This document shows, one piece after another, positions 44,526 through 64,000 of a stretch of DNA of 64,000 bases. The stretch lies in the NCBI RefSeq assembly GCF_017592555.1, contig NZ_JAGFNS010000001.1, forward strand, positions 1 through 64,000. Reading direction: 5' to 3'. How positions within the stretch are numbered: position 1 is the stretch's first letter; each line of letters begins with the position of its first letter. Below the pieces are notes generated by a model that saw nothing but the letters and a program-made list of their open reading frames with translations, searched no databases and was not told the DNA's origin. The DNA is from Actinoplanes flavus (lineage in GTDB: Bacteria > Actinomycetota > Actinomycetes > Mycobacteriales > Micromonosporaceae). Made by a program: the position numbers and the translations under genes.

Positions 44526-44536
44526 CACCCACGAGA

Positions 44537-44571
44537 AACGGCCCCCGCATCCGATGGATGCGGGGGCCGTT
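44537..44571. terminator. Strong bidirectional terminator
   Basis: AACGGCCCCCGCATCC (44537-44552) and GGATGCGGGGGCCGTT (44556-44571) pair over 16 bp with a 3-nt loop; T-rich on one side and A-rich on the other. It separates KS-beta from the convergent MMPL gene. Confidence 0.85.
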
Positions 44572-44583
44572 CCCTGCGGTGGC

Positions 44584-46782: not shown

Positions 46783-46824
46783 GCAATCCAGGACAACACC
46801 GCGTTCTTCCACCGCTCTGCGCCC

Positions 46825-46860
46825 GTTCTTAGAGTTCGGTGTCACAGCGATCCCTAAGAA
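46825..46860. promoter_or_regulatory. Inverted-repeat motif in a divergent promoter
   Basis: TTCTTAG (46826-46832) and CTAAGAA (46854-46860) form an inverted pair 21 bp apart, with TCACAGCGAT (46842-46851) between. It lies between the divergent MMPL and OmpR-type regulator genes and is a candidate autoregulatory site. Confidence 0.45.
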
Positions 46861-46887
46861 ATTCAGCGCTGCGTAGGGTTGAGACTC

Positions 46888-47592
46888 GTGAGCGTGACGG
46901 ACACGGGTATCAAGATTCTGGTAGTCGACGACGAGCGCTACCTGGCCGATCTGGTGGCCACCGCGCTGCGCTACGAGGGCTTCGAACCGGCCACCGCCGG
47001 ATCCTGCCGGCAGGCGCTGGAACAGGCGGCCGCGATGCGCCCCGACCTCATCGTGCTGGACGTGATGCTGCCGGACGGGTCCGGTCTGGACACCTGCCGC
47101 CGGCTGCGGGACGACGGCTGCGAGGCGCCGATCGTGTTCCTGACCGCGCGGGACGCCACCGAGGACAAGATCGCCGGGCTGACCGTCGGCGGGGACGACT
47201 ACGTCACCAAGCCGTTCAGCCTGGAGGAGCTGGTGGCCCGGGTGCGGGCGGTGCTGCGGCGCACCCGGCGCGACACCCGGGCGACCCGGCTCACGGTGGC
47301 CGACCTGGAGATCGACGAGGAGGCGTACGAGGTGCGCCGGAACGGCCGCCCGATCGACCTCACCCCGACCGAGTTCAAACTGCTGCGCTACCTGGTCGCC
47401 AACGCCGGCCGGGTGCTGACCAAGCGGCAGATCCTGGACCACGTCTGGGAGTACGACTTCGGCGGCAACGACGGCGTGGTCCAGACCTACATCAGCTATC
47501 TGCGCCGCAAACTGGACGCGGCCGGCCCACCGCTGATCCGGACCGTGCCCCGGGTGGGTTACGTGGTCCGGCCCGACACGCCGCGGAGCTGA
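46888..47592 (+). CDS. Response regulator, OmpR/PhoB family
   Basis: The 234-residue protein has a receiver domain (LVVDDERYLADL, phospho-Asp in IVLDVMLPDGSG, Lys in YVTKPFSLEELVARV) and a winged-helix DNA-binding domain (PIDLTPTEFKLLRYLVAN, ILDHVWEYDFGGND). It pairs with the kinase 3 bp downstream. GTG 46888 is preferred; TTG 46879 is in frame upstream. It is divergent from the MMPL exporter, a common regulator-transporter arrangement. Confidence 0.92.
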   Translation: MSVTDTGIKILVVDDERYLADLVATALRYEGFEPATAGSCRQALEQAAAMRPDLIVLDVMLPDGSGLDTCRRLRDDGCEAPIVFLTARDATEDKIAGLTVGGDDYVTKPFSLEELVARVRAVLRRTRRDTRATRLTVADLEIDEEAYEVRRNGRPIDLTPTEFKLLRYLVANAGRVLTKRQILDHVWEYDFGGNDGVVQTYISYLRRKLDAAGPPLIRTVPRVGYVVRPDTPRS

Positions 47593-47595
47593 CCC

Positions 47596-49023: not shown

Positions 49024-49038
49024 ACCGGACTACCGGTT
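49023..49038. terminator. Small hairpin between convergent genes
   Basis: AACCGG-ACTA-CCGGTT lies exactly at the junction of the kinase and the convergent beta-protein gene. The stem is only 6 bp, so termination is uncertain. Confidence 0.3.
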
Positions 49039-50676: not shown

Positions 50677-50693
50677 CGTGTGTCCTGTTCTGA

Positions 50694-51425
50694 TCAGGGG
50701 AAATGGCGGCGCATGAGTCGGCGCCAGGGGACGGCGGGCAGATCGGGCCGCAACGCTGCGAGCCCGGTCGCGTACTTGGAGATGCTGGTGGGCCGGTGCC
50801 CGCGGGCCCACAGCAGCCGGTCGACCGGCGAGACGGCCGATCCGGTCTTGGTCTCGACCACCGCGACGTGCGGGAGGGTCAACCCGGTGCCGTCCACGCC
50901 GGTCCAGGTGAGATCGACGTCGACGGTCGCCCGCGAGTCGTCCGCGGGCTGGTAGAACGTGGTCCGCCGGTAGTGCGTGAGCAGCGTCGGCGCGAGATCC
51001 AGCCCGGCGCTGTGACCCAGCACGTCGTCGACGAACCAGCGGCCCGGCTCGACCGTGTCGTGGTGGCAGGCCTGGTAGGGCAGCCGGTTCTTGACGGTCC
51101 CGCCGCGGTGGCCCTCGGTCTTCACCTCCAGCCAGCACAGCGCGGAGTCCAGGTAGGTCCGGGTGCGGACCTTGAACCGCCGCCGCCTCCGATGCGCGGT
51201 GAGCCGGTAGCTGACCAGGTCCGGGGTGTCGAAGTAGACCGACCGGTAGCGGAACGTGCGCTCCCCGTCGATCTCCAGCACCCGGGTCCGCGGATCGAGG
51301 AGTTCCAGCAGCTCCCGGGCCGCTTCCAGGGGGAGGACGTACTTGCGGTCGACCCGCGTCTGCAACTCGGCCTTCGCGGTGAGCTCGGCCAGCGAGATCG
51401 GATCCAGGTGGGTGGTCGCGCTCAT
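50694..51425 (-). CDS. VTC-domain polyphosphate polymerase-like protein
   Basis: The 243-residue protein has the tunnel-fold motifs of the VTC domain: RVDRKYVLP, YRSVYFDT, RRFKVRTRTYLD, CWLEVKTEG, ETKTGSA and SISKYATG, with the conserved Lys/Arg and Glu residues that bind nucleotide phosphates and metal. It may elongate polyphosphate or a related polymer from nucleoside triphosphate. No transmembrane segment is present; the DUF4956 membrane protein encoded just upstream (ATGA overlap) is its likely partner. Confidence 0.85.
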   Translation of the reverse strand: MSATTHLDPISLAELTAKAELQTRVDRKYVLPLEAARELLELLDPRTRVLEIDGERTFRYRSVYFDTPDLVSYRLTAHRRRRRFKVRTRTYLDSALCWLEVKTEGHRGGTVKNRLPYQACHHDTVEPGRWFVDDVLGHSAGLDLAPTLLTHYRRTTFYQPADDSRATVDVDLTWTGVDGTGLTLPHVAVVETKTGSAVSPVDRLLWARGHRPTSISKYATGLAALRPDLPAVPWRRLMRRHFP

Positions 51426-52003
51426 CGGTTCGCTCCGGCGAGCGTCGGCGCTTTCCTTCCCTGGGCGTACGAGTAGCGCACCTCGACCACAGTCGTCTCG
51501 TTGACCAGGTCCAGCCGCTCCACGGTGGCCTTGTGCACGCGTGCCCCGAGGATGCCCTCCAGTTGCACGGTCAGGGTGAGCGGATCGGTGACGGCGCTGT
51601 CCAGCACCAGGACCTGCCGCCCGTACGACCGGAACAGGCGGGGGTGGTCACCCAGGTACATGACCGTCAGGATCAGCCCCATCAGCGCCGGCACCAGCCA
51701 CTGCTCCCCACCGCTGAGCGGACCGAGGATGCCCAGCGCGAGCGCCGAGAAGTAGTACGCCACCTCGTGCTGGTCCAGCTCGGTGGATCGCAGCCGAATG
51801 ATCGACAGCACCCCGAAGAGCCCGAGCCCGAGCCCCGCGCCGACCGTGCTGGAGCTGAGCGACCCGGCCACCGCGAGAACGCCCACGTTGACCCCGAGAT
51901 AGGCCACCACCAGGTCGCGCCGCCGGTGCCGGGGAAAGTACAGCCCGAAGACCAGAACGGACACCGCTACGAGGTCTAGCGCAAACATGGCAAGCCGGGG
52001 CAT
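51422..52003 (-). CDS. DUF4956 membrane protein
   Basis: The 193-residue protein has four hydrophobic helices within residues 1-115 (FALDLVAVSVLVFGLYF, VVAYLGVNVGVLAVAGSL, VAYYFSALALGILGPL, WLVPALMGLILTVMYLG) and a soluble C-terminus of mixed alpha/beta type. The phrase GLFGVLSIIRLRSTELDQHEVAYYF is the DUF4956 signature. It starts the set DUF4956-VTC-Cthe_2159 and probably anchors or exports the polymer made by the VTC protein; inference. Confidence 0.85.
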   Translation of the reverse strand: MPRLAMFALDLVAVSVLVFGLYFPRHRRRDLVVAYLGVNVGVLAVAGSLSSSTVGAGLGLGLFGVLSIIRLRSTELDQHEVAYYFSALALGILGPLSGGEQWLVPALMGLILTVMYLGDHPRLFRSYGRQVLVLDSAVTDPLTLTVQLEGILGARVHKATVERLDLVNETTVVEVRYSYAQGRKAPTLAGANR

Positions 52004-52128
52004 AGTGACACGACCTCTCGAGGGCTCCGGCCGGACCTCCCCCGTGAACACCATCCGGACCGCAGGTTACATATCGATGAACTTCGATTAGACCGTAACC
52101 GTGACCGGCCGCTTTTCCATCGAACACA

Positions 52129-52148
52129 ACCTCAGAGCTACCTCAAAG
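52129..52148. promoter_or_regulatory. Direct repeat with 11-bp period
   Basis: ACCTCAGAG (52129-52137) and ACCTCAAAG (52140-52148) are spaced one helical turn apart, the format bound by OmpR/PhoB-type regulators. It lies between the divergent DUF4956 and DUF4190 genes. Confidence 0.35.
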
Positions 52149-52245
52149 ACCCCTGTGCGCCGGCTGTCCCGTCACATCGATGTCGATATCGATTCTTGAT
52201 CAGGAGGGGACACCGCACGGTTGAGGTGGGAACTACCGTGCGACC

Positions 52246-53040
52246 GTGCACAACCACGTTCCTTCCGACCCCTTCCAGCAGCCGGCCGCTGCTTCTCCGC
52301 CGTTCCCTCCGGCCCCACCGGCCCATCCCCCCGCGGCTCCGCCGGCCTATCCCGGTGCGGCGCCGCAGCCCTATCCGGCGGGCTGGGGCGGTCCGCCGCC
52401 GGCGGGCGGCCCCGGCCAGCCCGGCTATCCGTTCACGCCGCCGCAGCAGCCCGGCACCAACGGGTTCGCGATCGCCGCTCTGCTGGCCAGCATCCTCGGC
52501 GGCCTCGGCCTCGGCACCATCGGCGGCATCGTCTTCGGCATCATCGCGCTGCGGCAGATCAAGCGGCAGCCGCAGCGGGGCCGCGGGCTCGCCATCACCG
52601 GCCTGGTCTTCGCCGGCCTGCACATCCTCTTCGCCGTCGCGCTCGTGGCCTTCCTGGTCATCGACGAGCGCCGGGACACGGCCGCCGGGATCGACGACGT
52701 CGCGGTCACCGAGCTGAAGGCGGGCGACTGCATCCGCGACTTCGACGGGTCGGTGGCGATCTACGACCTGCCGACGGTGTCCTGCACCGATCCGCACAAG
52801 GCCGAGGTCTACCACGTCTACACCTTCCCGGCCGGCTCCTACCCCGGCCGAACCCAGGTCGAGGCGGAGAGCGACAAGCGGTGCGGCGCGGCCTTCGAGC
52901 CGTACCTGACCCCGCAGACCGAGAACATGGACATCTACTACCTCTACCCCCGAGACAGCAAGGAATGGCGACAGGACCGCAGCATCTCCTGCGTCGTGGT
53001 CGCCCCGAGCGGCACCCTCACCGCCCCGATCACCAAGTGA
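52246..53040 (+). CDS. DUF4190 membrane protein with septum-formation-like C-terminal domain
   Basis: The 264-residue protein has a Pro/Ala-rich cytoplasmic N-terminus (1-72), two transmembrane helices with the DUF4190 pattern (FAIAALLASILGGLGLGTIG, GIIALRQIKRQPQRGRGLAI) and an extracytoplasmic domain (about 150-264) with Cys pairs, KAGDCIRDF and VSCTDPHKAEVYHVY, as in actinobacterial septum-formation-family proteins. Role unknown; probably envelope-associated. GTG 52246 is the start. Confidence 0.75.
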   Translation: MHNHVPSDPFQQPAAASPPFPPAPPAHPPAAPPAYPGAAPQPYPAGWGGPPPAGGPGQPGYPFTPPQQPGTNGFAIAALLASILGGLGLGTIGGIVFGIIALRQIKRQPQRGRGLAITGLVFAGLHILFAVALVAFLVIDERRDTAAGIDDVAVTELKAGDCIRDFDGSVAIYDLPTVSCTDPHKAEVYHVYTFPAGSYPGRTQVEAESDKRCGAAFEPYLTPQTENMDIYYLYPRDSKEWRQDRSISCVVVAPSGTLTAPITK

Positions 53041-53046
53041 CCGGGT

Positions 53047-53077
53047 CCCGGCCACGCCCCCCCCGGGCGTGGCCGGG
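53047..53077. terminator. Bidirectional terminator
   Basis: CCCGGCCACGCCC (53047-53059) and GGGCGTGGCCGGG (53065-53077) form a perfect 13-bp stem with a 5-nt loop. It ends both the DUF4190 gene and the 10-kb minus-strand operon. Confidence 0.75.
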
Positions 53078-53123
53078 AGCTCGAACACCGCCGCCCGGCC
53101 TCCCGCTCAGATGCCGGCCGTGG

Positions 53124-54065
53124 TCACAGGTCGTCCAGCAGGCTCGTCACCGAGCCGTTCTCGAAGATCTCCCGGACCGCCTGGGCGATCAGCGGTGCGA
53201 TCGACAGCACCTCCACCTTGTCCAAGCCGGTGTCGGCGGCGCTGGGCAGGGTGTCGGTGAAGACGAACCGGCTCACCCGGCTGTTCTTGAGCCGGTCGAC
53301 GGCGGGCCCGGACAGGATCCCGTGTGTGGCGGCCACGATGACGTCGTCCGCGCCGGCCTCGTAGAGCGCCTCCGCGGCCGCACAGATCGTGCCGGCAGTG
53401 TCGATCATGTCGTCCACCAGCACGCACACCCGGCCGGCCACGTCTCCCACCACCTCGTGCACGCTCACCTGATGCGCGACGTCCTTGTCCCGCTTCTTGT
53501 GGACGATGGCGAGGGGCACCCCGAGCCGGTCGCACCAGCGGTCGGCGACGCGGACGCGCCCGGCGTCCGGTGAGACCACCGTGAGCCGGTCGCGCGGCTC
53601 CAGCCCGGCGATGTGGTCGGCCAGGATCGGCATCGCGAACAGGTGGTCCACCGGACCGTCGAAGAATCCGACGATCTGGTCGGTGTGCAGGTCGATCGTG
53701 ATGATCCGGTCGGCTCCGGCGGCGCCCATCAGGTCCGCCACCAGCCGGGCCGAGATGGGCTCGCGGCCCCGGTGCTTCTTGTCCTGCCGGGAGTAGCCGT
53801 AGAACGGGGCCACGACGGTGATGCTGCGTGCGGAGGCTCGCTTCAGGGCGTCGACCATGATCAGCTGTTCCATGATCCAGGTATTGATCGGGTCGGTGTG
53901 CGACTGGACGACGAAGCAGTCGGCACCTCGTACCGAAGCCTCGTGCCGTACGTAGATCTCGCCGTTCGCGAAGTCCCGCGCCTGCGTGGGCACGATGCCG
54001 GTGCCGAGTTCGGCCGCGATGTGCCCGGCGAGGGCGGGATGCGCCCGGCCGGTGAACAGCAGCAT
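53124..54065 (-). CDS. prs: Ribose-phosphate diphosphokinase (PRPP synthetase)
   Basis: The 313-residue protein has ITVVAPFYGYSRQDKKHRGREPISARL, VVSPDAGRVRVAD, and the PRPP loop VCVLVDDMIDTAGTI. It makes PRPP from ribose 5-phosphate and ATP. ATG 54065 aligns with the usual N-terminus; GTG 54098 overlaps the preceding stop as GTGA and is an alternative. It is the last gene of the operon and appears dedicated to ribose-phosphate supply for the pathway, alongside the PRPP-using uracil phosphoribosyltransferase. Confidence 0.92.
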   Translation of the reverse strand: MLLFTGRAHPALAGHIAAELGTGIVPTQARDFANGEIYVRHEASVRGADCFVVQSHTDPINTWIMEQLIMVDALKRASARSITVVAPFYGYSRQDKKHRGREPISARLVADLMGAAGADRIITIDLHTDQIVGFFDGPVDHLFAMPILADHIAGLEPRDRLTVVSPDAGRVRVADRWCDRLGVPLAIVHKKRDKDVAHQVSVHEVVGDVAGRVCVLVDDMIDTAGTICAAAEALYEAGADDVIVAATHGILSGPAVDRLKNSRVSRFVFTDTLPSAADTGLDKVEVLSIAPLIAQAVREIFENGSVTSLLDDL

Positions 54066-54094
54066 CCGCCGGACCGCCGCGGTGCCGGTCCGCC

Positions 54095-55177
54095 TCACCG
54101 GTCGCTGCCTGGGCCGAGCACGGCGTAGTCGGTGTAACCGCGGTGGTCCCCGCCGTAGAAGGTGGACTCGTCGGCCGTGTTGAACGGGCCACCCGCGCTG
54201 ATCCGGGCCGGCAGATCCGGATTGGCGAGGAAGAGCGCGCCGAGCGACACCGCGTCGGCGAGACCCTCGTCGAGAACCTGCTGGGCGGACTCGACGGCGG
54301 CGGGGAACGAGTCCGGCGTGGCGTGCGGGTTGACGATCAGGTTGCCCTGCCACCGGTCCCGGACGGCACGGGTGACCGGACGGCTGACGATCTCGCAGAC
54401 CTCCAGGAAGGCCAGCTCGGGCAGGGCGGGCACCAGGGACGCGTACAGGGCGTCGGTGTCGCCCTCGGCGATGTCGTTGTAGGTGTTGGCGGGCGACACC
54501 CGTACGCTGGTCCGCTCGTTGCCGATCGCGGCGGCGACCGCCTCGGTGACCTCGACGGTGAATCGGATCCGGTTCGCCACGGATCCGCCGTAGGCGTCCG
54601 TGCGCCGGTTGGTGTTCTCGGCGAGGAACTGGTGCAGCAGGAAGCCGTTGCCGGCGTGGATCTGCACGCCGTCGAAGCCGGCCTCGATCGCGTTGCGCGC
54701 GGCGTCGGCGAAGTCCCGCACGGTGTGCTGGATCTCCTCGACCGTCAGCTCGCGCGGCGTGGGATAGGCGGCGAGGCCGTTCGGGGTGAAGCACTGCCCG
54801 GCGGCGGCCACCGGGGAGGGTGCCACGGACTGATGCGCGCTGTCGTAGAGGGAGGGGTGGCCGATCCGGCCGGAGTGCATCAGCTGCACGACGATCCGGC
54901 CGCCGCGGGCGTGCACGGCGTCGGTCACGGCCCGCCAGGTCTTCACCTGCTCCGGGTGGTGCAGCCCGGGCGTGTTCATGAAGCCCTGGCCGATCTGCGA
55001 CGGCTGGGTGCCCTCGGTGATGATCAGGCCGGCGGAGGCGCGCTGGGCGTAGTACTCGGCCATCAGATCGGTGGCGCCGCCGCAGGGCTTGGCGCGGTTG
55101 CGGGTCATCGGAGCCATGACGAGGCGGTTGGCGAGCGCGATCTTGCCGAACGTGACGGCGTCGAACAGGGAGGTCAT
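54095..55177 (-). CDS. Old yellow enzyme family alkene reductase
   Basis: The 360-residue FMN protein shows LVMAPMTRNRA, the substrate pair His-xx-Asn in QIHAGNGFLLHQFL, and NRRTDAYGGSVANRIRF. It uses NAD(P)H to reduce activated C=C bonds, for example maleimides and enones. In the operon it may reduce an intermediate ring or detoxify a reactive product. It lies 12 bp after the PsuG gene; GGAAGA precedes ATG 55177. Confidence 0.9.
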   Translation of the reverse strand: MTSLFDAVTFGKIALANRLVMAPMTRNRAKPCGGATDLMAEYYAQRASAGLIITEGTQPSQIGQGFMNTPGLHHPEQVKTWRAVTDAVHARGGRIVVQLMHSGRIGHPSLYDSAHQSVAPSPVAAAGQCFTPNGLAAYPTPRELTVEEIQHTVRDFADAARNAIEAGFDGVQIHAGNGFLLHQFLAENTNRRTDAYGGSVANRIRFTVEVTEAVAAAIGNERTSVRVSPANTYNDIAEGDTDALYASLVPALPELAFLEVCEIVSRPVTRAVRDRWQGNLIVNPHATPDSFPAAVESAQQVLDEGLADAVSLGALFLANPDLPARISAGGPFNTADESTFYGGDHRGYTDYAVLGPGSDR

Positions 55178-55189
55178 GGAGTGTCTTCC

Positions 55190-56137
55190 TTACCGGCTGG
55201 AGGAATCGGACAGGTGGCGGGCGTAGGCGGCGGCCAGCCGGCCCCCGACCTCGGCCGTGGAGATGAGGACGGCCATGTTGGCCTGGGCGGTCCGGCCTCC
55301 GGTGGCCCGGTCGACCGCGTGCATGAGGTACTTGGTCAGCCCCTGGCCACCGACACCGTCCCGCTCGGCCTGGGCGAGCGCGTCCGCGATGGCGGCTTCG
55401 GCCTCGGCGGAGTCGACGGCGTCCTCGGCGCGCGGCGGGGTGGTGACGACCACGCCGCCCGGGTGGCCGGTCGCCCAATGGGTCGCGACGACCTTGGCGA
55501 TCATGTCCTCGTCGTCGATGCGGTGCGGTGCGCGTACGCCGCTGGACGAACAGTAGAACGCGGGGAAGTCGTCGGAGCCGTGGGCGATGACCGGGACGCA
55601 GTGCGTCTCCAAATACTCCATGGTCAGCTTCAGATCGAGGATCATCTTCGCGCCCGCGCAGACCACCGCGACCTTGGAACGGGTCAGCTGGATCAGGTCG
55701 GAGGAGATGTCCATGGTCGTCGCCGCGCCGCGGTGCACGCCACCGAGCCCGGCCGAGGAGAAGAACGGGATCCCGGCGAGTTCCGCGGCCACCAGCGAGG
55801 AGGCGACCGTGGTGGCGCCGCGTCCGCCGCGGGCCAGCACGACCGGCAGGTCTCGGCTGGAGACCTTCGGGATGCCCGGCTCGGAGGCGAAGTTCTCGAT
55901 GTCCCGCTCGGTCATCCCGGCCCGGATCACGCCGTCCTCGACGCAGATGGTCGCCGGTACCGAGCCGCCGTCGCGTACGGCCTTCTCGACCCGTCGCGCG
56001 GTCTCCGCGTTCTCCGGAAACCGCAGGCCGTGCGTGATCACGTTGGATTCGAGCGCGACGACCGGACGCCCCTCGTGCAGGGCCTCTCGTACCTCCTCGG
56101 TGTACACGACGGGAATGCGGTAGCTGGTGGAACTCAT
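55190..56137 (-). CDS. Pseudouridine-5'-phosphate glycosidase family C-glycosidase/synthase
   Basis: The 315-residue protein is a PsuG-family member with VALESNVITHGLRFPEN, PKVSSRDLPVVLA, GLGGVHRGAATTMDISSDL and VVCAGAKMILDL. Glu30, Lys91 and Lys164 occupy the positions of E. coli PsuG Glu31, Lys93 and Lys166 (Schiff-base Lys), so it should be active. PsuG enzymes reversibly join uracil and ribose 5-phosphate by a C-C bond. Homologues in minimycin, showdomycin and indigoidine clusters act as C-glycosynthases on other nucleobase-like rings. It overlaps the tautomerase gene by ATGA. Likely the key C-nucleoside-forming enzyme here. Confidence 0.88.
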   Translation of the reverse strand: MSSTSYRIPVVYTEEVREALHEGRPVVALESNVITHGLRFPENAETARRVEKAVRDGGSVPATICVEDGVIRAGMTERDIENFASEPGIPKVSSRDLPVVLARGGRGATTVASSLVAAELAGIPFFSSAGLGGVHRGAATTMDISSDLIQLTRSKVAVVCAGAKMILDLKLTMEYLETHCVPVIAHGSDDFPAFYCSSSGVRAPHRIDDEDMIAKVVATHWATGHPGGVVVTTPPRAEDAVDSAEAEAAIADALAQAERDGVGGQGLTKYLMHAVDRATGGRTAQANMAVLISTAEVGGRLAAAYARHLSDSSSR

Positions 56138-56403
56138 CGGGATCCTTCGTTCTCGGGCTGGTCGATCGGGAGGGGGGAGCCGTAGTCGGGCCTCTTCCAC
56201 AGCTGGTGCTGCTTGGCCGCGATGTCCGGGGCGTGGACGGCGGTCATCCACTCGGCCGGATCAACGGACTCCACCGCGATGGACACCGTGCCGGGCTCGG
56301 TGTCGAACACCCGGGTGACGACGCCGGTCATCGAGGCGACCAGGTCGGCCTTCTCGGCCTCGGTGAACGTGCGGGTGAAGTGTTTGATGCTGACGTGCGG
56401 CAC
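56134..56403 (-). CDS. 4-oxalocrotonate tautomerase-like protein
   Basis: The 89-residue protein starts Met-Pro when read from GTG 56403 (PHVSIKHFTRTFTEAEKADL), placing the catalytic Pro1 of the tautomerase superfamily right behind the initiator. An ATG at 56421 would bury the Pro and is disfavoured. VVTRVFDTEPGTVSIAVESV is the family core. It could shift a keto-enol or imine-enamine equilibrium of the ring made by the NRPS. AAGGGA precedes the GTG. Confidence 0.8.
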   Translation of the reverse strand: MPHVSIKHFTRTFTEAEKADLVASMTGVVTRVFDTEPGTVSIAVESVDPAEWMTAVHAPDIAAKQHQLWKRPDYGSPLPIDQPENEGSR

Positions 56404-56432
56404 GGTGGCGGTCCCTTTCATGCGCTGGAGGG

Positions 56433-56472
56433 GCCTCGCCCCGTGGGCACGGGGGAACACACGGGGCGAGGC
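56433..56472 (-). promoter_or_regulatory. Two mutually exclusive intercistronic hairpins
   Basis: GCCTCGCCCCGTG (56433-56445) pairs perfectly with CACGGGGCGAGGC (56460-56472). The inner CCCCGTG (56439-56445) can instead pair with CACGGGG (56448-56454). They lie in the 86-bp gap between NRPS and tautomerase genes. No U-tract follows, so attenuation by alternative folding or mRNA processing is more likely than plain termination. Confidence 0.5.
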
Positions 56473-56489
56473 GTTCAAGGGGCGGCAGG

Positions 56490-59400
56490 TCACGGGTGCG
56501 GCGTCGCCTCGCGGATCCGGGCGATCAACTCGTCGACCCCGTGCTGCTTGAGGACGCTGTAGTGGTCCCCGTCCAGGTCCACCACCCGGGGCGGGCGGGC
56601 GGAGTACCCGGAGCTGTTCTCCAGGAAGGAGTAGTCGTCACCGCGGGCCTTGAAGATGGTCACCGGCGCGTCGATCCGGCGCTCCCGCAGCTCGTGGAAC
56701 GAGTACTCGAACTCGTAGGTCTCGGCCACGATCCGGATGATGCGGCGGATCGTCGCCTCGTCCAGGCCGGGCATGGTGCGGTGCACGAAGGAGACGAAGG
56801 TGTCCTCGTCACGGACCTCGCGCAGGCAGTCCCGCACGACCTCGCCGTGCACGGTTCCGGCGAAGACGGAGAACAGGATGGTGAGGTAGGCCGGGTCGGC
56901 GAACGAGGCGGTCCGCCCCCCGCGCCCGGTCGCCGCACCGCGTACCCGCGGATTGCCGGGGCAGATCAGCAGCAGGTTCGCCACCTTCTCGCCGGCCTGC
57001 TCCAGCTGCCACGCGGCCTCGAAGGCGACCCTGGCGCCGAAGGAATATCCCCACAACGTGTACGGCCCGGACGGCTGCATGCCGCGGATCTCCGCGACGT
57101 CGGCCGCGGCGGTCTCCCGGATCGTGGCGTACGGGTCCTCGCCGGCGTTGATGCCGTGGGCCTGCACGCCGGTCACCGGCCGGCCGAGTCCGGCGCCCTG
57201 GGCGAGCAGGCGCAGGTTCATCGGGTAGCCGCCCAGTCCCGGCCAGACGAACACGGGGTCGCCGGAGCGTTCCCGGTGCAGCGGCACCAGCCGGGAGCGG
57301 TGTGCGGCGCCACCGGCGTCGACGCGGGCGGCCAGGTCGGCGAGTCTCGGCGCCTCGAAGACCACCTGGAGCGGCAGAGCCGATCCGAACTCCCGGTTGA
57401 TCCGGTTGACCAGTGCCACAGCGTGCAGGGAGTTGCCGCCCGAGGCGAAGAACTCGTCCTGGGTGGAGACCTGCTCGTACCTCAGCATCCGGCCCCACTC
57501 GGCGGCGAGCCACCGTTCGGTCGGGGTGGCGGGCGCCACATAGCGGGCCGGCGTGCGGGCCGCGACGACATCCGGCAGCTGCGCGGTGGCCTTGATGTCG
57601 ATCTTCCCGTTGGCGGTGAGCGGGAGTTCGTTCACGACCAGGACCCGCGCCGGGATCATGTAGTCGGGCAGGAACTGCGCGAGGTCGTCCCGGATCATCT
57701 CGGCCGGGCCCTTGGTGTGCACGGCGTCCTCGTTCATGCCCTCGTGCGCGGCCTGTTCGGGCGTGATCGGGCCACCGACGAAGAAGTACGACGCGGTAGC
57801 CGGGGCGGCGCCCGCGGCGGCGAGCAGGTCGTCCAGGCGCCGGGCGGCGGCCAGCGGGTTGCCGGACTTCGACGAGTAGCCCGAGGCCATCAGCCCCACG
57901 CCGGGGACGCGTTGCAGGCGGTGCAGGCACGTACCGAGCACGATGTAGTGCCGCCATGCCTCACCGGCCCGGGACACCGCCGCGATCCCGATCGACGATC
58001 GATCGTAGACACCCTGGTTGATGGCGATGACATGGCGGCGTTCGACCACCTCGTCGCCCAGACGTTCCAGCCCGCCGCCGTGGTGGCGGTACAGCCCGGC
58101 CGGCAGGCCGGCCACCCGGTCGCCGTGCGCCTGTACGAACAGCTCGACCTCGTCGCCGGTGGGCCGATCGTGGTACGCGGTGACGGCGAACGTCCCGAGA
58201 TAGTGGTCGTCGGCGGCCACGTCGAGCCGCGAACGCACCGTGGGGTGGTAGCCCTCGGGCACGATGGTGAGCCCGTGGCGGGGCAGCACCTCCTCGAAGA
58301 GGCCCAGCATGTGCCCGGCCTCGAACTCCAGCACCTCGACGATGTTGTTCTTGTAGACCGGCTCGATGGCCTGGCGTTTGCCGAGAAGATGCACTTTGAG
58401 TGGTGCGCCGCCGGTGCCGTCCACGTCGCCCACCCGGACCAGGGTGTGGTCGACCGGGTGGTGGTAGTAGACGCCCGACAGGCCGAACAGGCCGTCAATC
58501 TCCAGATACATCTGGGTGGCGTACAGGGCTCCCGGTGAGGAGTAGGCGTACTTGGGCAGCAGCCGCTGCTCGCTGTGGAACGGCCCGAACCAGCGCAGCA
58601 CCGAGCCGAGTTCGGCGAGCGTGAGCTCGGTGACCGCCCGGGGCGCGGCGGCCTCGGGGGCACGCGGTGTGAGCAGCGCGACGACGTCGGCGGCGGTCAT
58701 GGCGTCGCCCTCGTAGAAGCGGTACGTCTTGCGGGCGAAGGCCACTTGGCGCTGCTCCGTGGTGCTCTCGGCACCCGGCAGCCGGAGGACCGGACGGCCG
58801 GCCAGCGCCGTCGCGTCGCGCAGGCCCGGATTGGACAGCTGGGTCCGCACCTGCAACTTGGACGACTTCGACTGATGGTGGGCGGCGTCGTCGCGCCCCT
58901 GATCCATCACCGTGGCCGTCCGCTCATTCAGCTCCACGGCCGCGAGCAGCGTCTGGCCCTCGGTACGGGGGTCGTCGACGACCACCGCGGCCGCGCGGCG
59001 TACCCAGGTGTGTTCCTCGATCCGGGAGGCGACCTCCTCCAGCTCCACCCGGTAGCCGCGCAGTTTGACCTGGTTGTCGGTACGGCCGAGGAACTGGATG
59101 GTGCCGTCCGGCTCCCACTGTGCGAGGTCGCCGGTCCGGTAGAGGCGTTCCGTCGGGTTGAACGGCGAGACCAGGAATCGCTGTCGCGTCACCTCGGGCA
59201 GGCCGATGTATCCGCGGGCCACCTGGATGCCACCGATGAACAGCTCGCCGCTCTCGCCGATGTCCACCGGCCGGCGGTCCTCGTCGAGGATGTAGCAGGT
59301 GACGTTGTCCACCGGGATACCGACCGGGACGATCGCGGGGAAGGAATCGTCGAGCGTCTGCGGGTCGACCCAGTAGGACGTGGCGTTGATGGTCGCCTCG

Positions 59401-60323
59401 GTGGGGCCGTAGAGGTTGACCACCGACATCTCGGGCCGGATCGCGCACAGCTCCTGGGCGAGGGCGCGGGTCAGGGCCTCACCACCGGCGAACACGTGGG
59501 TGAGGGAGTCGCAGGCATCGAGCATCTCGGTGTCGACGAGAGCCTGGAGCAGTGTCGGAACGCCCTGCAGCACGGTCACCCGGTGCTTGCGGATCATGGT
59601 GATGATGGCCTCGGGGTCACGGAACAGGCCGGGCGTGCCGGCGACCACCCGGGCGCCGGCGGCACAGGCCAGGATCTCCCACTGCGCGGCGTCGAAGCTC
59701 ATCGGCGTCTTCTGCAGGATCGACACCCCGGGGCCGAGATGTCCGCAGTTCGCGAGCCACCGCAGCTGCGAGACGATGCTGCGCTGCTCGATCATCACGC
59801 CCTTGGGGCGGCCGGTGCTGCCGGAGGTGTAGATGACGTAGGCGAGGTGGTCGCCCTGCCCCTTCGCCGCGGCGGCCGGCCTGTCACCGGCCGGCTCCTC
59901 GCCGGTGACGCTGACGACGGTCGTACCCTCCGGCGCCAGGCGGCGCAACCGCTCACGCAGGTGCGGCTGGGTGACGATGACCCGGGTGCCGGAGTTCTCG
60001 ATCATGTACCGCAGGCGCGCCTCAGGGTAGTCCGGCGACAGTGGCAGATAGGCGGCGCCGGCGGTGAGGATGCCCCACACCGCGGTGATGAGATCGGCGG
60101 AGGGCTCGGCGTAGAGGCCGACACAGGTGTCGGGGGCGACGCCGAGACCGGTCAGCACATGTCCCAGCCGGTCGGCGGCCCGGGTCAGTTCGCGGAAGGT
60201 GAGGTCGCCGTCCTCGGCGGTGACCGCGATGTCGTCCGGGCGCTGCCGAGCCTGATGACTCAGGAGTCCTCGCAGGGTGGCCTGCTTCGAGGACACACCG
60301 GACGCGGAAGTCTGGATGCTCAT
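56490..60323 (-). CDS. Indigoidine synthetase-type NRPS (A-Ox-T-TE)
   Basis: The 1277-residue protein has the length and domain order of IndC/BpsA. The adenylation domain spans about 1-430 (YTSGSTGRPKG, NLYGPTEATI, YRTGDLA, VKLRGYRVELEEV), with FDAAQW at the specificity position 235-239. An FMN oxidation domain (about 480-850; KYAYSSPGALYATQMYLE, GYSSKSGNPLAAARRL) is inserted before the last A motif (TANGKID, Lys near 907). The thiolation Ser is near 965 (ASGGNSLHAV) and the thioesterase Ser near 1094 (WGYSFGAR). Such enzymes cyclise and oxidise L-glutamine to an amino-pyridinedione-type product, giving blue indigoidine on dimerisation. The operon partners suggest the product is diverted into a C-nucleoside. 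Confidence 0.92.
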   Translation of the reverse strand: MSIQTSASGVSSKQATLRGLLSHQARQRPDDIAVTAEDGDLTFRELTRAADRLGHVLTGLGVAPDTCVGLYAEPSADLITAVWGILTAGAAYLPLSPDYPEARLRYMIENSGTRVIVTQPHLRERLRRLAPEGTTVVSVTGEEPAGDRPAAAAKGQGDHLAYVIYTSGSTGRPKGVMIEQRSIVSQLRWLANCGHLGPGVSILQKTPMSFDAAQWEILACAAGARVVAGTPGLFRDPEAIITMIRKHRVTVLQGVPTLLQALVDTEMLDACDSLTHVFAGGEALTRALAQELCAIRPEMSVVNLYGPTEATINATSYWVDPQTLDDSFPAIVPVGIPVDNVTCYILDEDRRPVDIGESGELFIGGIQVARGYIGLPEVTRQRFLVSPFNPTERLYRTGDLAQWEPDGTIQFLGRTDNQVKLRGYRVELEEVASRIEEHTWVRRAAAVVVDDPRTEGQTLLAAVELNERTATVMDQGRDDAAHHQSKSSKLQVRTQLSNPGLRDATALAGRPVLRLPGAESTTEQRQVAFARKTYRFYEGDAMTAADVVALLTPRAPEAAAPRAVTELTLAELGSVLRWFGPFHSEQRLLPKYAYSSPGALYATQMYLEIDGLFGLSGVYYHHPVDHTLVRVGDVDGTGGAPLKVHLLGKRQAIEPVYKNNIVEVLEFEAGHMLGLFEEVLPRHGLTIVPEGYHPTVRSRLDVAADDHYLGTFAVTAYHDRPTGDEVELFVQAHGDRVAGLPAGLYRHHGGGLERLGDEVVERRHVIAINQGVYDRSSIGIAAVSRAGEAWRHYIVLGTCLHRLQRVPGVGLMASGYSSKSGNPLAAARRLDDLLAAAGAAPATASYFFVGGPITPEQAAHEGMNEDAVHTKGPAEMIRDDLAQFLPDYMIPARVLVVNELPLTANGKIDIKATAQLPDVVAARTPARYVAPATPTERWLAAEWGRMLRYEQVSTQDEFFASGGNSLHAVALVNRINREFGSALPLQVVFEAPRLADLAARVDAGGAAHRSRLVPLHRERSGDPVFVWPGLGGYPMNLRLLAQGAGLGRPVTGVQAHGINAGEDPYATIRETAAADVAEIRGMQPSGPYTLWGYSFGARVAFEAAWQLEQAGEKVANLLLICPGNPRVRGAATGRGGRTASFADPAYLTILFSVFAGTVHGEVVRDCLREVRDEDTFVSFVHRTMPGLDEATIRRIIRIVAETYEFEYSFHELRERRIDAPVTIFKARGDDYSFLENSSGYSARPPRVVDLDGDHYSVLKQHGVDELIARIREATPHP

Positions 60324-60355
60324 TTCGATATCCCCCGTTACAGATGTGTGAAGCG

Positions 60356-61264
60356 CTACACCTGACTCGTCGCTGGAGCGGGCGGCACGGTCTCGGCGGT
60401 CTTCGCCGGGGTACGCGGCTGGGCGAGGACGACGGCTCCGATGACCGCGGCGGCACCGAGCAGTTGGAGCGGTCGTAGCGTCTCGTCCAGGAACAGGTAA
60501 CCCAGGACCGTCGCGCACAGCGGAGAGGCGAACGACAGGAACGAAGCGGCGAGAGCGGGCAACTGGGCGAGCCCGCGGAACCACAGCACATAGGCCAGCA
60601 GCGCGCCGATGACACCGAGGTAGAGGAAGCCGCCGATGTTCTCCCCGGTGAAGTGGTCCGGCAGGTCCTCGCCGGCGAGGGTGATCGGCAGCAGCACCAG
60701 GCCACCGACGGTGAGCTGCCAGCCGGTGAAGGTCAGCAGGCTCACCCCCTCGGGGCGGCCCCACTTCTTGGTGAAGACGATGCCGGACGCCATCGACAGC
60801 GCACCGAGCAGCCCGGCGCCGACACCGATGCCGTCGAGGCCGGCGTTCGGCTGCAACACCAGCATGGCCACACCCGCGGCGCCGAGCAGGCAGGACACCA
60901 CGTGCACCGGCCGGATCCGGTCCTGGAGCAGCGCCGAGCCGAGCAGCAGCACGATCATCGGCTGCACCGACATCACCAGCGCGGCCACGCCGCCGGGCAG
61001 GTGATAGGCGGCCAGGAACAGGAAGTAGAAGAAGGCGCCGATGTTCAGCACGCCGAGGACCACGGCGCGCAGCCACCAGATGCCCTTCGGCAGGGTACGG
61101 GTGATCAGCAGGAGGACCAGGCCGGCGGGCAGTGCTCGCAGCATGGAGGCGAGAAGTGGCCGGTCGGGCGGCAGGAACTCGGTGGTGACCAGGTAGGTGG
61201 AGCCCCACACGGCGGGGGCGATCGCGGTGACGGCGGACGACATCGCGAGACGTCGACTGTTCAT
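60356..61264 (-). CDS. EamA/DMT-family exporter
   Basis: The 302-residue protein has ten hydrophobic helices in two EamA repeats (APAVWGSTYLVTTEFLP; GIVFTKKWGRPEGVSLL). Members export metabolites or amino-acid derivatives. It overlaps the uracil phosphoribosyltransferase gene by ATGA and precedes the NRPS by 32 bp, so it is the likely exporter of the operon's product and part of self-protection. Confidence 0.88.
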   Translation of the reverse strand: MNSRRLAMSSAVTAIAPAVWGSTYLVTTEFLPPDRPLLASMLRALPAGLVLLLITRTLPKGIWWLRAVVLGVLNIGAFFYFLFLAAYHLPGGVAALVMSVQPMIVLLLGSALLQDRIRPVHVVSCLLGAAGVAMLVLQPNAGLDGIGVGAGLLGALSMASGIVFTKKWGRPEGVSLLTFTGWQLTVGGLVLLPITLAGEDLPDHFTGENIGGFLYLGVIGALLAYVLWFRGLAQLPALAASFLSFASPLCATVLGYLFLDETLRPLQLLGAAAVIGAVVLAQPRTPAKTAETVPPAPATSQV

Positions 61265-61926
61265 CGCTGGGATCCCGCATCGATCGTGCCGAAGAATCGG
61301 TCACCGAAGTCGCCGATGCCGGGGATCATGAAAGCGTGCTCGTTGAGCTGGTCCTCGATCGCACTCGTGACGATTCTCAGACGGGGCCGCTCGGCGGCGA
61401 TCCGGCGCAGCCCCTCCGGCGACGACAAGAAATTGATCATGATGATCCGGTCCTCGCGTACCCCGGCCTCGGCCAGCACGTCGACCGCGGCGAGCGCGGA
61501 TCCCGCGGTGGCCAGCATCGGCTCCAGCAGCAGGACATGCCGCTGGGCGATGTCGTCGGGCAGGTGCTTGTAGTAGAGGTGCGGCTGCTTGGTCCGCTTG
61601 TCGCGCTGGATGAGGATCTTGCCGAGGCGGATGCCGGGGCAGACGTCGCGCAGCTCGCTCTCCATCGCCTCACCGGCCCGGATCACCGGGACGGCGCAGA
61701 TCTTCGAGGCGAACTCCAGCCCCGGGTAGGTGGCCCCGACCGGCGTGGTGACTTTCTTCTCGGTGAACGGCAGCAGGTTGAGGCCGTGCTCCAGCAGCAG
61801 CCGGATGACTCGCCGCGCATAGAAGACGAAGTCCGCGCGGCTGCAGTCCTTGTCCCGGATGATCGTGTGCATGGCGCGCAGCTGATCGGTCTGCGGTAGA
61901 AGGTGAACGTTATGGCCCGTGGTCAC
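61261..61926 (-). CDS. Uracil phosphoribosyltransferase, eukaryote-like type
   Basis: The 221-residue protein matches UPRTase: LLPFTEKKVTTPVGATYPG, RAGEAMESELRDV, GKILIQRDKRT, LLLEPMLATAGSA (PRPP loop) and PGIGDFGDRFFGT (uracil site). The phrases LPFTEKKVTTP, YYKHLPDDIA and GDFGDRFFGT resemble fungal/plant enzymes more than standard bacterial Upp, whose end reads GDAGDR. A UPRTase is also part of the minimycin cluster, where it contributes to self-resistance. Here it could supply UMP or salvage uracil analogues. Confidence 0.85.
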   Translation of the reverse strand: MTTGHNVHLLPQTDQLRAMHTIIRDKDCSRADFVFYARRVIRLLLEHGLNLLPFTEKKVTTPVGATYPGLEFASKICAVPVIRAGEAMESELRDVCPGIRLGKILIQRDKRTKQPHLYYKHLPDDIAQRHVLLLEPMLATAGSALAAVDVLAEAGVREDRIIMINFLSSPEGLRRIAAERPRLRIVTSAIEDQLNEHAFMIPGIGDFGDRFFGTIDAGSQR

Positions 61927-62052
61927 GTCGGACTCCTCGGGGTCGCCGGTCAGCTGGATGTGGGCAGGCGGGAGCCCGCGCCGTGCCTGGCCGGCACGGG
62001 CGCCCGTCGGTTTCGGAAGGTGTGTGGTGAGCGGCTACGCCGATCCGCGATG

Positions 62053-62736
62053 TCAGCCGATCTCCGCGAAGGCGGCGCGCGCCTCGGCGACGAACTTCGC
62101 GACCTTGGCCCGGTCCTTGCGCCCGTCCGGGCCCTCCAGGCCGGTGTGGGCGTCGACCGCGGCCGGGCGGACGGCACGGATCGCCGCGCCGACGTTCTCC
62201 GGGTTCAGCCCACCCGCCATCATCAGCGGCTTGGGGGAACGGCGGACCAGCTCGGCGGAGACGTTCCAGTCGTGGGTGAGCCCGGTCGCGCCCTTGGCCC
62301 CGGTCCTCGGGTCGAAGGTGTCGGTGATGTACATGTCGACGAACGGATGCGTCTCGTCGACGAGTTTCACGAGCTCGTCGGCGTTGTCCTGCTTGACCAC
62401 CAGGGACTTGAGGACGAACAGGTCGGGTCGCAGTTCCTTGAGCCGGCGCAGCTGCGTGGTCTCCACGTCGCCGTGCAGCTGGACGGCGACGACACCCAGC
62501 TCCTGGCAGAACTCGCTGATCTCTTCGGCCTCGGTGAGGTAGCTGATGAGCACGCCCGCGTGCGGGGGCTCCAGGCCCTTGATGATGGCCGCGGCATCCG
62601 GCTCGGCGATGTCGTCCTTGCCGGACGGCAGCCGCAGGGCGAAACCGATCCAGTCGGCGCCCTCTTCGATGATCATGCCGGCCTCGGCGGCGTCGATGAT
62701 GCCGGCTACCTGAACGAGCTTGTCAACAGTGGTCAC
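62053..62736 (-). CDS. TrpF-like protein (phosphoribosylanthranilate isomerase family)
   Basis: The 227-residue TIM barrel resembles TrpF: VQVAGIIDAAEAGMIIEEG at the N-terminus, VQLHGD in the middle, ITDTFDPRTGAKGATG and MAGGLNPENVGAAI near the end. The general-base Cys of TrpF (KICGIT) is replaced by Ala11, while the Asp (ITDTFD) is kept. Phosphate-binding loops are present, so it probably acts on a ribose-phosphate conjugate but not by the normal Amadori route. GTG 62736 has GGGGGACGG upstream. Second gene of the operon. Confidence 0.78.
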   Translation of the reverse strand: MTTVDKLVQVAGIIDAAEAGMIIEEGADWIGFALRLPSGKDDIAEPDAAAIIKGLEPPHAGVLISYLTEAEEISEFCQELGVVAVQLHGDVETTQLRRLKELRPDLFVLKSLVVKQDNADELVKLVDETHPFVDMYITDTFDPRTGAKGATGLTHDWNVSAELVRRSPKPLMMAGGLNPENVGAAIRAVRPAAVDAHTGLEGPDGRKDRAKVAKFVAEARAAFAEIG

Positions 62737-62791
62737 GTGGACCGTCCCCCCATGTGTGTCGCGCCAGGAGCGCGTTGTACGGATGTGCCGC

Positions 62792-63451
62792 CTACCGGCC
62801 GTACGCCTCCCGGAAGACCGTCAGGGAACGGTCCCGGCGGCCGGGATGAAGGCGGCTCTCGGCCGGACGGCCGAGCGGCAGCAGCAGAGCGATGTGCAGG
62901 TCGTCGCGGAACGGGATGCCGACAGCCGCCTTGACCTTGGCCTCGTCCCAGCCGTTCATCGGGCTGGTGGCCAGGCCGGCCGCGTGTGCGGCGATCATCA
63001 GAAAGGACGCGGCGATCATGGCGTCCTTGACGGCCAGCTCCCGCTCCAGGCCGCGTCGTTGCGGCTCCTCGTGGAAGGCCCGCACGTCGTCCGGTGAGGC
63101 CGCGGCGAACCGCGCCGACCAGGCTCCGCAGCGGCGCGCCTGCTCCCAGACATCGGCGCGGTCCTCACGCCAGGCGCCGGACTCGGCGACGAACACCAGC
63201 ATCACGGGTGCCTCCCGTGGATGCGGCTGGCCTCCGGTGGCCTCGACGAGCGCCTCGCGACCGGCCTCGGCCGTGACGACGACGATGGACCGGGCCTGGA
63301 GGTTGAAGCTCGACGGTGCCTCGAGGGCCAGCTCGATCAGGTCGTTGAGCAGGTCCTCAGGCACCGGATCGGGCAGGTAGTGGCGGATGCTGCGCCGCGA
63401 CCGGATGATCTCCGACACGGTAGCGTGGGCCCGTGACATCCGTTCCCCCAT
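62792..63451 (-). CDS. Nitroreductase-family FMN oxidoreductase
   Basis: The 219-residue protein has IIRSRRSIRHYLPDPVPEDLLNDLI and LEAPSSFNLQAR (FMN site), and GLATSPMNGWDEAKVKAAVGIP, typical of NfsB/NfnB-like enzymes. It may reduce or oxidise a quinone, nitro or iminoquinone group. ATG 63451 has AGGGGGAGG at 5 nt; ATG 63439 is an alternative. It is the first gene of the operon, behind a promoter overlapped by MarR-type palindromes. Confidence 0.85.
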   Translation of the reverse strand: MGERMSRAHATVSEIIRSRRSIRHYLPDPVPEDLLNDLIELALEAPSSFNLQARSIVVVTAEAGREALVEATGGQPHPREAPVMLVFVAESGAWREDRADVWEQARRCGAWSARFAAASPDDVRAFHEEPQRRGLERELAVKDAMIAASFLMIAAHAAGLATSPMNGWDEAKVKAAVGIPFRDDLHIALLLPLGRPAESRLHPGRRDRSLTVFREAYGR

Positions 63452-63488
63452 CAGCCTCCCCCTTCGACGTCGGCCGATCTCCCTTCGA

Positions 63489-63535
63489 AAGTTAGTAGGG
63501 CACCCGCTTGACGTCAAACATTTCGACGTCGAAAT
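63489..63535. promoter_or_regulatory. Divergent promoter with two MarR-type palindromic operators
   Basis: TTGACGTCAA (63508-63517) and ATTTCGACGTCGAAAT (63520-63535) are perfect palindromes sharing a GACGTC core. On the minus strand TTGACG (63517-63512) and TAACTT (63494-63489) are -35 and -10 elements 17 bp apart for the nitroreductase operon. The first palindrome covers that -35, so binding would repress. The second lies where the marR promoter should be. Confidence 0.7.
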
Positions 63536-63581
63536 AATGTGCTGAACGTAACTACGTGATTCCAAGACTTGAGGTGACCCC

Positions 63582-64000
63582 ATGCGCGACGCTGCCGACG
63601 ACTTCCTCGACCAGTGGGCCGCCCAGCGTGACGACCTCGACCTCGACGCGATGGGCACCATCGGCCGCATCCTGCGCCTGTCCCGATTCGTCAACGCCCG
63701 CCTGAAGGAGTACTTCGCCGAGCACGACCTGGAGACCTGGGAGTTCGATGTGATCGCCACGCTGCGCCGCAGCGCCCGGCCCCTCACCCCCAAGGAGCTG
63801 GCCGAGAGCGTCATGATCGGCTCGGCGGCACTGACGAATCGGATCGACCGGCTCGTCGCACGCGGTCTCGTCAGCCGCGAGGCGGTGCCCGGAAACCGGC
63901 GGAGCCTGCACGTGACCCTGACCGCCGAGGGCCGCGACCTCGTCGACGCCACCATCGAAGGGCATGTGCGCAATCAGCGCGGCATGCTCGGGGGCCTGGA
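63582..64000 (+). CDS. MarR-family transcriptional regulator (3' end beyond the window)
   Basis: From ATG 63582 (GAGGTGA upstream) an uninterrupted frame runs to the window end, 139 codons. It contains a winged-helix domain: LTPKELAESVMIGSAALTNR, then RLVARGLVSREAVPGNRRS and LHVTLTAEGRDLVD, all typical of MarR. It is divergent from the nitroreductase operon and probably represses both through the palindromes at 63508-63535, released by a small phenolic or pathway ligand. The last residues are missing. Confidence 0.9.
   Translation, partial: MRDAADDFLDQWAAQRDDLDLDAMGTIGRILRLSRFVNARLKEYFAEHDLETWEFDVIATLRRSARPLTPKELAESVMIGSAALTNRIDRLVARGLVSREAVPGNRRSLHVTLTAEGRDLVDATIEGHVRNQRGMLGGL

Follow-up and report, generated by a model that had tools for sequence, protein, structure and literature searches.

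A gene cluster of Actinoplanes flavus as a probable variant of minimycin-type clusters marked by a repurposed TrpF-like protein

What is made by a bacterial gene cluster that joins an indigoidine-synthetase-type nonribosomal peptide synthetase (NRPS) to a PsuG-family C-glycosynthase, a TrpF-like protein and enzymes of nucleotide metabolism? Such a cluster occupies positions 53124-63451, on the minus strand, of a 64,000-nucleotide stretch of Actinoplanes flavus DNA (contig NZ_JAGFNS010000001.1, positions 1 to 64,000), which as a whole is called the window here. A preliminary description of this DNA had read it as a possible C-nucleoside pathway encoded by a new combination of genes. We find that the gene set is not categorically new but is a variant of minimycin-type clusters, marked by a repurposed TrpF-like protein. 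Of the possible classes of product, a C-nucleoside has the best support. We consider it reasonably probable that the nine genes are a minimycin-type cluster without MinC, making a C-nucleoside 5'-phosphate that would then be processed by a TrpF-like barrel devoid of its catalytic cysteine, and we infer that the late step runs through this repurposed barrel and flavin reductases. Papers are cited by PMC number.

All nine genes are intact and co-directional, each with a start and a stop codon in a check of open reading frames, and the family assignment of all nine was upheld by Pfam. In order of transcription they are:

62792-63451, minus strand, nitroreductase-family flavoenzyme of 219 amino acids (PF00881, E 1.6e-27)
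62053-62736, minus strand, TrpF-like protein with the fold of phosphoribosylanthranilate isomerase (PRAI), 227 amino acids, alanine in place of the catalytic cysteine (Pfam PRAI)
61261-61926, minus strand, uracil phosphoribosyltransferase (UPRT), extra copy (PF14681, E 4.3e-76)
60356-61264, minus strand, EamA/DMT-family exporter (PF00892, E 9.2e-39)
56490-60323, minus strand, indigoidine-synthetase-type NRPS of 1277 amino acids with adenylation (A), oxidation (Ox), thiolation (T) and thioesterase (TE) domains in the order A-Ox-T-TE, tautomerase not fused (Pfam A, T and TE)
56134-56403, minus strand, 4-oxalocrotonate-tautomerase-family protein, GTG start codon (PF01361, E 2e-05)
55190-56137, minus strand, PsuG-family C-glycosynthase (PF04227, E 1.3e-106)
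54095-55177, minus strand, old yellow enzyme (OYE) of the N-ethylmaleimide-reductase type (PF00724, E 6.9e-75)
53124-54065, minus strand, ribose-phosphate pyrophosphokinase (phosphoribosyl pyrophosphate, PRPP, synthetase), extra copy (NF002844, above its cut-off)

The distances between them, in the same order, are 55, 126, -4, 32, 86, -4, 12 and 29 bp, and the run of same-strand genes with short gaps or 4-bp overlaps described earlier is present as claimed, with gaps of -4 to 126 bp. Judged from spacing and strand, the nine genes likely form one operon. Their grouping is not due to chance, since the set recurs in many genomes. We compared 30 different loci of this TrpF type, the window included, from Actinomycetota and Alphaproteobacteria. 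They come from named genomes, from surveys of the host's family and of that of S. bikiniensis, and from plasmids. When the named genomes were scanned with the TrpF-like protein, 17 loci were obtained, of which 16 belong to the cluster TrpF-like family. Two duplicates (L061, equal to L034, and L072, equal to L060) count neither in the trees nor among the 30 loci, and the PLSDB matches H3, H5-H7 and H9 stand outside the counts. Four NRPS loci from the survey of the host's family with no PsuG gene nearby (L035, L039, L042 and L045, with L039 truncated by the end of its contig) are not of the TrpF type. Some gene absences stem from contig or fetch ends (L050, L052, L055 and L063).

UPRT is present at all 30 loci, EamA at 29 (on varying strands) and PsuG at 27, the remaining three lying on contigs that end within the operon. 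The NRPS was found at 25; one was lost to a contig end, and four operons have none. The hosts include Streptomyces, Kitasatospora, Glycomyces, Corynebacterium, Agrobacterium vitis and Epibacterium. At four other loci at least eight of the nine genes stand in the same order. All nine, together with a divergent MarR gene, are present at L049, L053 and L103, the PRPP synthetase match at L049 being a single piece of 134 residues only, and L056 has eight, with OYE absent. With these loci, and with eight of the nine genes also on plasmid pSA3239, we rejected the idea of a unique set; the novelty first claimed for the combination was not borne out.

As a measure of rarity, within the host phylum the TrpF-like protein was matched at E 1e-30 in 2 of 396 genomes, the host's own and a cysteine-bearing one (L084), within the S. 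bikiniensis family at 1e-45 in 9 of 297, counting S. bikiniensis and two known Kitasatospora genomes, and within the phylum of Epibacterium ulvae in 1 of 398, which is E. ulvae itself. Of the loci compared, those of Streptomyces come nearest to the window copy (TrpF-like 90%, PsuG 89% identity), and two loci of its own genus, L036 and L037, hold a different variant (TrpF-like 64-66%, PsuG 70-73%). Because the closest copies are in Streptomyces and same-genus copies are more distant, horizontal transfer is the simplest reading. The gene set is real and recurrent, and has apparently spread horizontally.

The minimycin cluster provides the frame for interpreting these genes. There the NRPS, MinA, includes a tautomerase domain, MinB acts as C-glycosynthase, and MinC combines a HAD phosphatase and a DUF4243 domain; MinT is an exporter and MinD a UPRT protecting the producer (PMC8724604). 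An unannotated cluster of the same type lies on plasmid NZ_CP108478.1 of S. mirabilis NBC_01248 (L087, about 4249-13678), with genes for an MFS protein, an NRPS to which the tautomerase is fused, PsuG, a HAD+PF14027 protein and UPRT.

The NRPS of the window had been recognised as an A-Ox-T-TE enzyme of the indigoidine type, and this assignment is upheld by the Pfam A, T and TE matches, by its A-domain code and by the identity of its Ox part. The latter has no Pfam match and was identified by 51-59% identity to 12 relatives, each in another genome of a survey of 300 genomes of the host's family; 18 further genomes of that survey gave only weak partial Ox matches. The A-domain code is DAWQFGLIN, which we take to be the glutamine code of indigoidine synthetases, and the GGxS and GxSxG motifs are present. 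Of the 29 other NRPS-bearing loci, 27 also show DAW, FG and (L or V)IN, including pSA3239 and E. ulvae; at L045 and L071 DAW and FG were found with the last motif unreadable, and the fourth letter (Q) was read in the window NRPS only. Such an NRPS is a feature of indigoidine clusters and, as a single glutamine-code module accompanied by a tautomerase function, here a separate gene, equally of minimycin-type clusters. The window NRPS has no C-terminal tautomerase tail, and relatives carry the tautomerase as an adjacent gene or as such a tail (24 of the 30 loci, 15 as a gene and 9 as a tail). The window tautomerase has a proline directly after the start methionine and matches the PptA model at E 3.7e-18, under its cut-off. 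In two genomes (G860 and G879, loci L108 and L109) a second indigoidine-type NRPS lies far from the TrpF-type cluster, with an Ox domain 64% identical to that of the window.

The operon PsuG had been described as catalytically intact. Aligned to E. coli PsuG, it retains E31, K93, H137, D149, K166 and N289, presumably the catalytic residues. It is 71% identical to the PsuG of L087 and groups with the other cluster PsuGs in the tree. PsuG, UPRT and PRPP synthetase are all enzymes of the salvage type, and the operon could in principle be a nucleotide-salvage unit with PsuG running in the breakdown direction next to a pigment gene. We hold this to be most improbable. The genome has a second PsuG at C1:184168-185037, about 128 kb off and 38% identical to the operon copy, beside a gene that by eye resembles a sugar kinase; these two likely form a salvage pair, so the operon PsuG would not be needed for salvage, and the operon has no kinase gene.

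By homology, then, the NRPS would load glutamine, oxidise it and release the cyclic indigoidine monomer, the tautomerase would turn the monomer into a form accepted by PsuG, and PsuG would couple it to ribose 5-phosphate through a C-C bond. A review places the tautomerase domain at the step preceding C-glycosylation (PMC8724604). The C-nucleoside pathway proposed at the outset is thus supported as far as PsuG, by the NRPS, the tautomerase and the PsuG residues; the late steps differ from those of minimycin.

The TrpF-like gene is what separates the window set from the minimycin-type cluster. A predicted structure model of its product has the PRAI fold, as in phosphoribosylanthranilate isomerase (TrpF) itself, and the aspartate and the phosphate-binding loops are kept but not the cysteine. 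In PRAI the catalytic cysteine lies in a KICG motif. At its position an alanine (QVAG or QIAG) stands in 136 of 136 relatives among the matches listed, and QVAG was found in all 24 cluster TrpF-like rows of the alignment, from which L065 was excluded as having KICG and in which the row L061 repeats L034. The family comprises 902 proteins at E <= 1e-30, the best 120 of which were listed, and gammaproteobacterial members (Pseudoalteromonas, Rheinheimera, Shewanella) were seen as proteins. The best NCBIfam PRAI score of the window protein is 113.2 bits against an equivalog cut-off of 215, and it falls under every PRAI cut-off matched. A housekeeping TrpF was rejected: the protein is the sole PRAI match in this genome, and its catalytic cysteine is gone; actinobacteria usually use PriA instead of TrpF.

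Some matches to this protein were set apart. L065 and L084 (36-37% identity) are not of the cluster TrpF-like family, nor is the solitary, distant gene L073 (Ensifer canadensis pT173d, 9833-10510), which has no PRAI cysteine motif and a sugar-transport neighbourhood. A TrpF-like protein of Corynebacterium glaucum (P0127, on a 2.5-Mb contig) is 61% identical to that of C. aurimucosum. In the metagenome proteins of P0124 (33 members) a Corynebacterium-type TrpF-like domain runs into a C-terminal PsuG piece; we did not use this fusion as a functional link, since it looks like the deletion product of such an operon.

The counterpart of the TrpF-like gene is the missing MinC. Positions 44001-64000 of the window gave no HAD or DUF4243 match, and hence no MinC. 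At none of the 30 TrpF-type loci was a cluster-type HAD detected by a profile derived from the HADs of three clusters (L041, L086 and L088); a weak remote match at L052 (profile E 1e-13; 32% identity to the HAD part of MinC, E 4e-5) lies about 3 kb off on the opposite strand. With the DUF4243 part of the L087 protein as query, this domain was found at 0 of the 30. Conversely, none of the four HAD loci (L041, L086, L087 and L088) has a TrpF-like gene, and in the loci examined the TrpF-like gene and the cluster HAD are mutually exclusive. L041, from the host's family (G042:C17, 7834-15295), encodes NRPS, tautomerase, PsuG, HAD, UPRT and EamA and is an intermediate of the two cluster types, because it has a HAD with neither DUF4243 nor a TrpF-like gene.

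A MinC equivalent elsewhere in the genome was rejected. The only PF14027 match is partial (34.5 bits over 80 positions), in a protein that shares 29% identity with the MinC-like one across 116 residues. The operon had been said to lack the HAD phosphatase of known clusters, and this was confirmed; a close homologue elsewhere in the genome was likewise rejected, since the 16 genomic matches to the L041 HAD are distant (24-35% identity; best match 31%). The PsuG and NRPS trees, which are midpoint-rooted, have several weak forks and show very long branches for L071, L088 and the salvage PsuG, fail to separate TrpF-type from HAD-type clusters, and a distinct TrpF-type clade was therefore rejected. 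As the window has everything but MinC and the trees do not split the two types, the front of the pathway appears to be common and its end different.

OzmD, a DUF4243 protein, is reported to form the oxazine ring of oxazinomycin, which is minimycin, from a pyridine C-nucleotide. A cluster without DUF4243 would therefore stop at, or branch from, the pyridine C-nucleotide. From the anatomy of the loci, the TrpF-like protein would act on the phosphoribosyl part of this C-nucleotide, in MinC's place. Might the product still be minimycin or showdomycin, reached by another late route in which the TrpF-like protein and the flavoenzymes replace MinC? S. lavendulae FRI-5, of the same species as the host of pSA3239, produces minimycin, showdomycin and indigoidine. 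Self-protection by UPRT would suit a uridine analogue (PMC8724604). The lack of DUF4243 throughout the TrpF-type loci, the partial PF14027 match in this genome and the absence from the nine genes of a dissociated showdomycin-type NRPS or a cyclase make such a route very unlikely.

UPRT and an exporter, both noted at the outset and upheld by Pfam, are shared with the minimycin-type cluster as genes, their protective role being predicted. Another UPRT above cut-off is encoded elsewhere in the genome (C7), as are two further PRPP synthetases. By analogy with MinD, the extra UPRT likely serves self-protection; supplied by the extra PRPP synthetase, it would raise the UMP pool, as reported for MinD. 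The OYE matches the NemA-type model at E 8.9e-90, under its cut-off. A WrbA-like flavodoxin occurs at 7 of the 30 loci, never together with OYE, and one or the other is present at 22. Going by gene content, OYE (or the WrbA-like protein), sometimes with the nitroreductase, could reduce the base or keep the monomer reduced against dimerisation to indigoidine, after which a host phosphatase might strip the phosphate and EamA export the product. The different or reduced base suggested in the preliminary description is thus a possibility.

Close relatives of the cluster carry the label of a pigment. The plasmid pSA3239 of S. lavendulae CCM 3239 (formerly S. aureofaciens) has eight of the nine genes (TrpF-like, UPRT, EamA, tautomerase, PsuG, OYE, PRPP synthetase and NRPS) at 39-80% identity; its NRPS comes last, and it has a SARP regulator, with no nitroreductase or MarR match. 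The 'indigoidine' cluster of E. ulvae U95 (fosmid 19F10) has the order TrpF-UPRT-EamA-NRPS-Tau-PsuG-OYE as in the window, at 34-63% identity, and its locus gave no match to nitroreductase, PRPP synthetase or MarR in 20.7 kb. The plasmid pET44827 of C. aurimucosum shares the divergent MarR, TrpF-like, UPRT, NRPS, tautomerase, PsuG and EamA genes at 34-53% identity and differs in having an NAD(P)H-binding protein, with no match to OYE, nitroreductase or PRPP synthetase. In the open-licence PMC literature we found nothing linking such clusters to a role of the TrpF-like protein or to a C-nucleoside product; among the matches listed, PMC2830990 is the only one to hold both 'indigoidine' and 'phosphoribosylanthranilate isomerase'.

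A number of observations weigh against a C-nucleoside cluster with a TrpF-like late step. The exclusion between TrpF-like gene and cluster HAD is drawn from just four HAD loci; three of them supplied the profile, and one, L041, gave no match to DUF4243. A dedicated phosphatase was found neither in the operon nor by the genome search with the L041 HAD. OYE occurs at 15, nitroreductase at 6 and PRPP synthetase at 15 of the 30 loci, which places OYE and nitroreductase outside the conserved core, and the TE motif was unmatched in the NRPSs of L040, L043, L044 and L056. Four Kitasatospora-type operons (L051, L054, L101 and L102) lack the NRPS; a weak match at L054 (29% over 182 residues) was left out of the count as presumably belonging to a different NRPS gene. 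Three of the four genomes have the NRPS elsewhere, on another contig in G300 and G301 and about 380 kb away in G834, and this co-occurrence in trans supports the functional link; no indigoidine-type NRPS was found anywhere in the fourth, G897, which stays unexplained. Nor is the TrpF-like protein indispensable, because L085 (a plasmid of Streptomyces sp. NBC_00158), otherwise pSA3239-like and with OYE also gone, keeps the other genes beside a degenerate TrpF-like remnant at 7673-7998. Finally, in the papers covered, TrpF-type clusters have as their reported products only indigoidine (E. ulvae and S. lavendulae CCM 3239), the sole one identified, and a black pigment. U95 makes indigoidine by HPLC/MS, with a six-gene cluster named for it (PMC7989816). 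Fosmid 19F10 is reported to be without other indigoidine genes (PMC3564156), and it carries extra genes in an E. coli host that may activate the NRPS poorly.

These products raise the question whether the operon serves plain indigoidine synthesis, with PsuG, the TrpF-like protein, UPRT and the others accessory to the handling of the blue pigment. We regard this as rather unlikely. In its favour, the cluster of pSA3239 is described as an indigoidine cluster and is apparently MIBiG BGC0000727, the S. aureofaciens entry named as such, for which a separate tautomerase gene is discussed (PMC12766979); indigoidine genes are also reported to interrupt the aur1 cluster (PMC10409956). E. ulvae, the indigoidine producer, has seven of the genes and a single NRPS of the indigoidine type in its genome, and the readable A-code letters of the window are the same as in the relatives so labelled. 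However, a BpsA-type NRPS alone yields indigoidine in E. coli BAP1 (PMC12766979), so PsuG, UPRT and the TrpF-like protein would not be needed. The label itself may mislead, because it proved incomplete for the minimycin cluster, for which production of both minimycin and indigoidine has been reported, whereas a cluster homologous to it throughout is registered under indigoidine alone (PMC12701797). Fosmid 19F10 from U95 made E. coli antibacterial with no blue pigment (PMC3564156); antinematode activity is absent from Table 1 of that paper and present according to PMC7989816. C. aurimucosum, which has six of the genes, forms a black pigment, and the NRPS region of pET44827 (PRAI-like orf20, IndA-like orf17) was inferred from annotation to be its source (PMC2830990). 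For the preliminary description, a characterised cluster of known product with the very same genes would have spoken against a new pathway; pSA3239 goes half of that way, as its near-identical set is labelled indigoidine and the label may be incomplete.

The C-nucleoside reading can be carried one step further, into a proposal that we offer as decidedly unlikely in its full form. Clusters labelled 'indigoidine' in Actinomycetota and Pseudomonadota would make one class of C-nucleosides, in which the cysteine-less TrpF-like protein opens the furanose of the C-linked ribose phosphate in an Amadori-like manner, as TrpF does with an N-linked one, and the amino group that the pyridine base bears beside the new C-C bond could close onto the sugar chain to give a fused, azaindole-like product. 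If true, this would account both for the lack of a dedicated phosphatase and oxidase and for the pigment of C. aurimucosum being black and not blue.

Upstream of the nine genes lie two further features:

63582-64000, plus strand, divergent MarR-family regulator gene, running on to about 64070 past the end of the window (Pfam MarR_2/MarR)
63520-63535, no strand, perfect palindrome of 16 bp, ATTTCGACGTCGAAAT, in the gap of the divergent gene pair, candidate operator for MarR

A complete MarR gene is readable on L046, and a divergent one is also present at L049, L053, L055, L056, L103 and L071. The 14-bp core of the palindrome has a single occurrence in the 64 kb of the window at up to 2 mismatches, against 0.13 expected. 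The 12-bp core TTCGACGTCGAA is found again in the corresponding gap of S. somaliensis (L055), and L049 has a partial form of it; no perfect palindrome was found in the MarR-operon gap of L049, L053, L056 or L071. The palindrome is a candidate operator through which the MarR regulator would likely control the nine-gene unit.

If the C-nucleoside reading is right, an undescribed nucleoside, from a class with RNA-polymerase inhibitors among its members, is the product of 'blue-pigment' clusters in Streptomyces, Agrobacterium, marine roseobacters and corynebacteria. It would offer a candidate explanation for the black pigment of C. aurimucosum and for the antibacterial, non-blue fosmid of E. ulvae, and would give a TrpF-fold family without the textbook catalytic cysteine a likely class of substrate.

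Compared with the minimycin cluster (MinA, MinB, MinC, MinD and MinT; BGC0002295), the window is alike in its NRPS with tautomerase function, PsuG, UPRT and exporter. It differs in having no MinC, in the added OYE, nitroreductase and PRPP synthetase and in the tautomerase being a separate gene; the TrpF-like gene of the window is not among the five min genes and was not found in L087. A showdomycin-like gene set is present on plasmid NZ_CP156687.1 of Burkholderia stagnalis (L088, 5806-13011), comprising an AMP ligase, a carrier protein, an ectoine-synthase-like cupin, an acyl-CoA dehydrogenase, PsuG, HAD and an MFS protein. The dissociated A and carrier proteins, the cyclase and the phosphatase of the showdomycin cluster are absent among the nine genes of A. 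flavus, but the PsuG-family C-glycosynthase is common to both.

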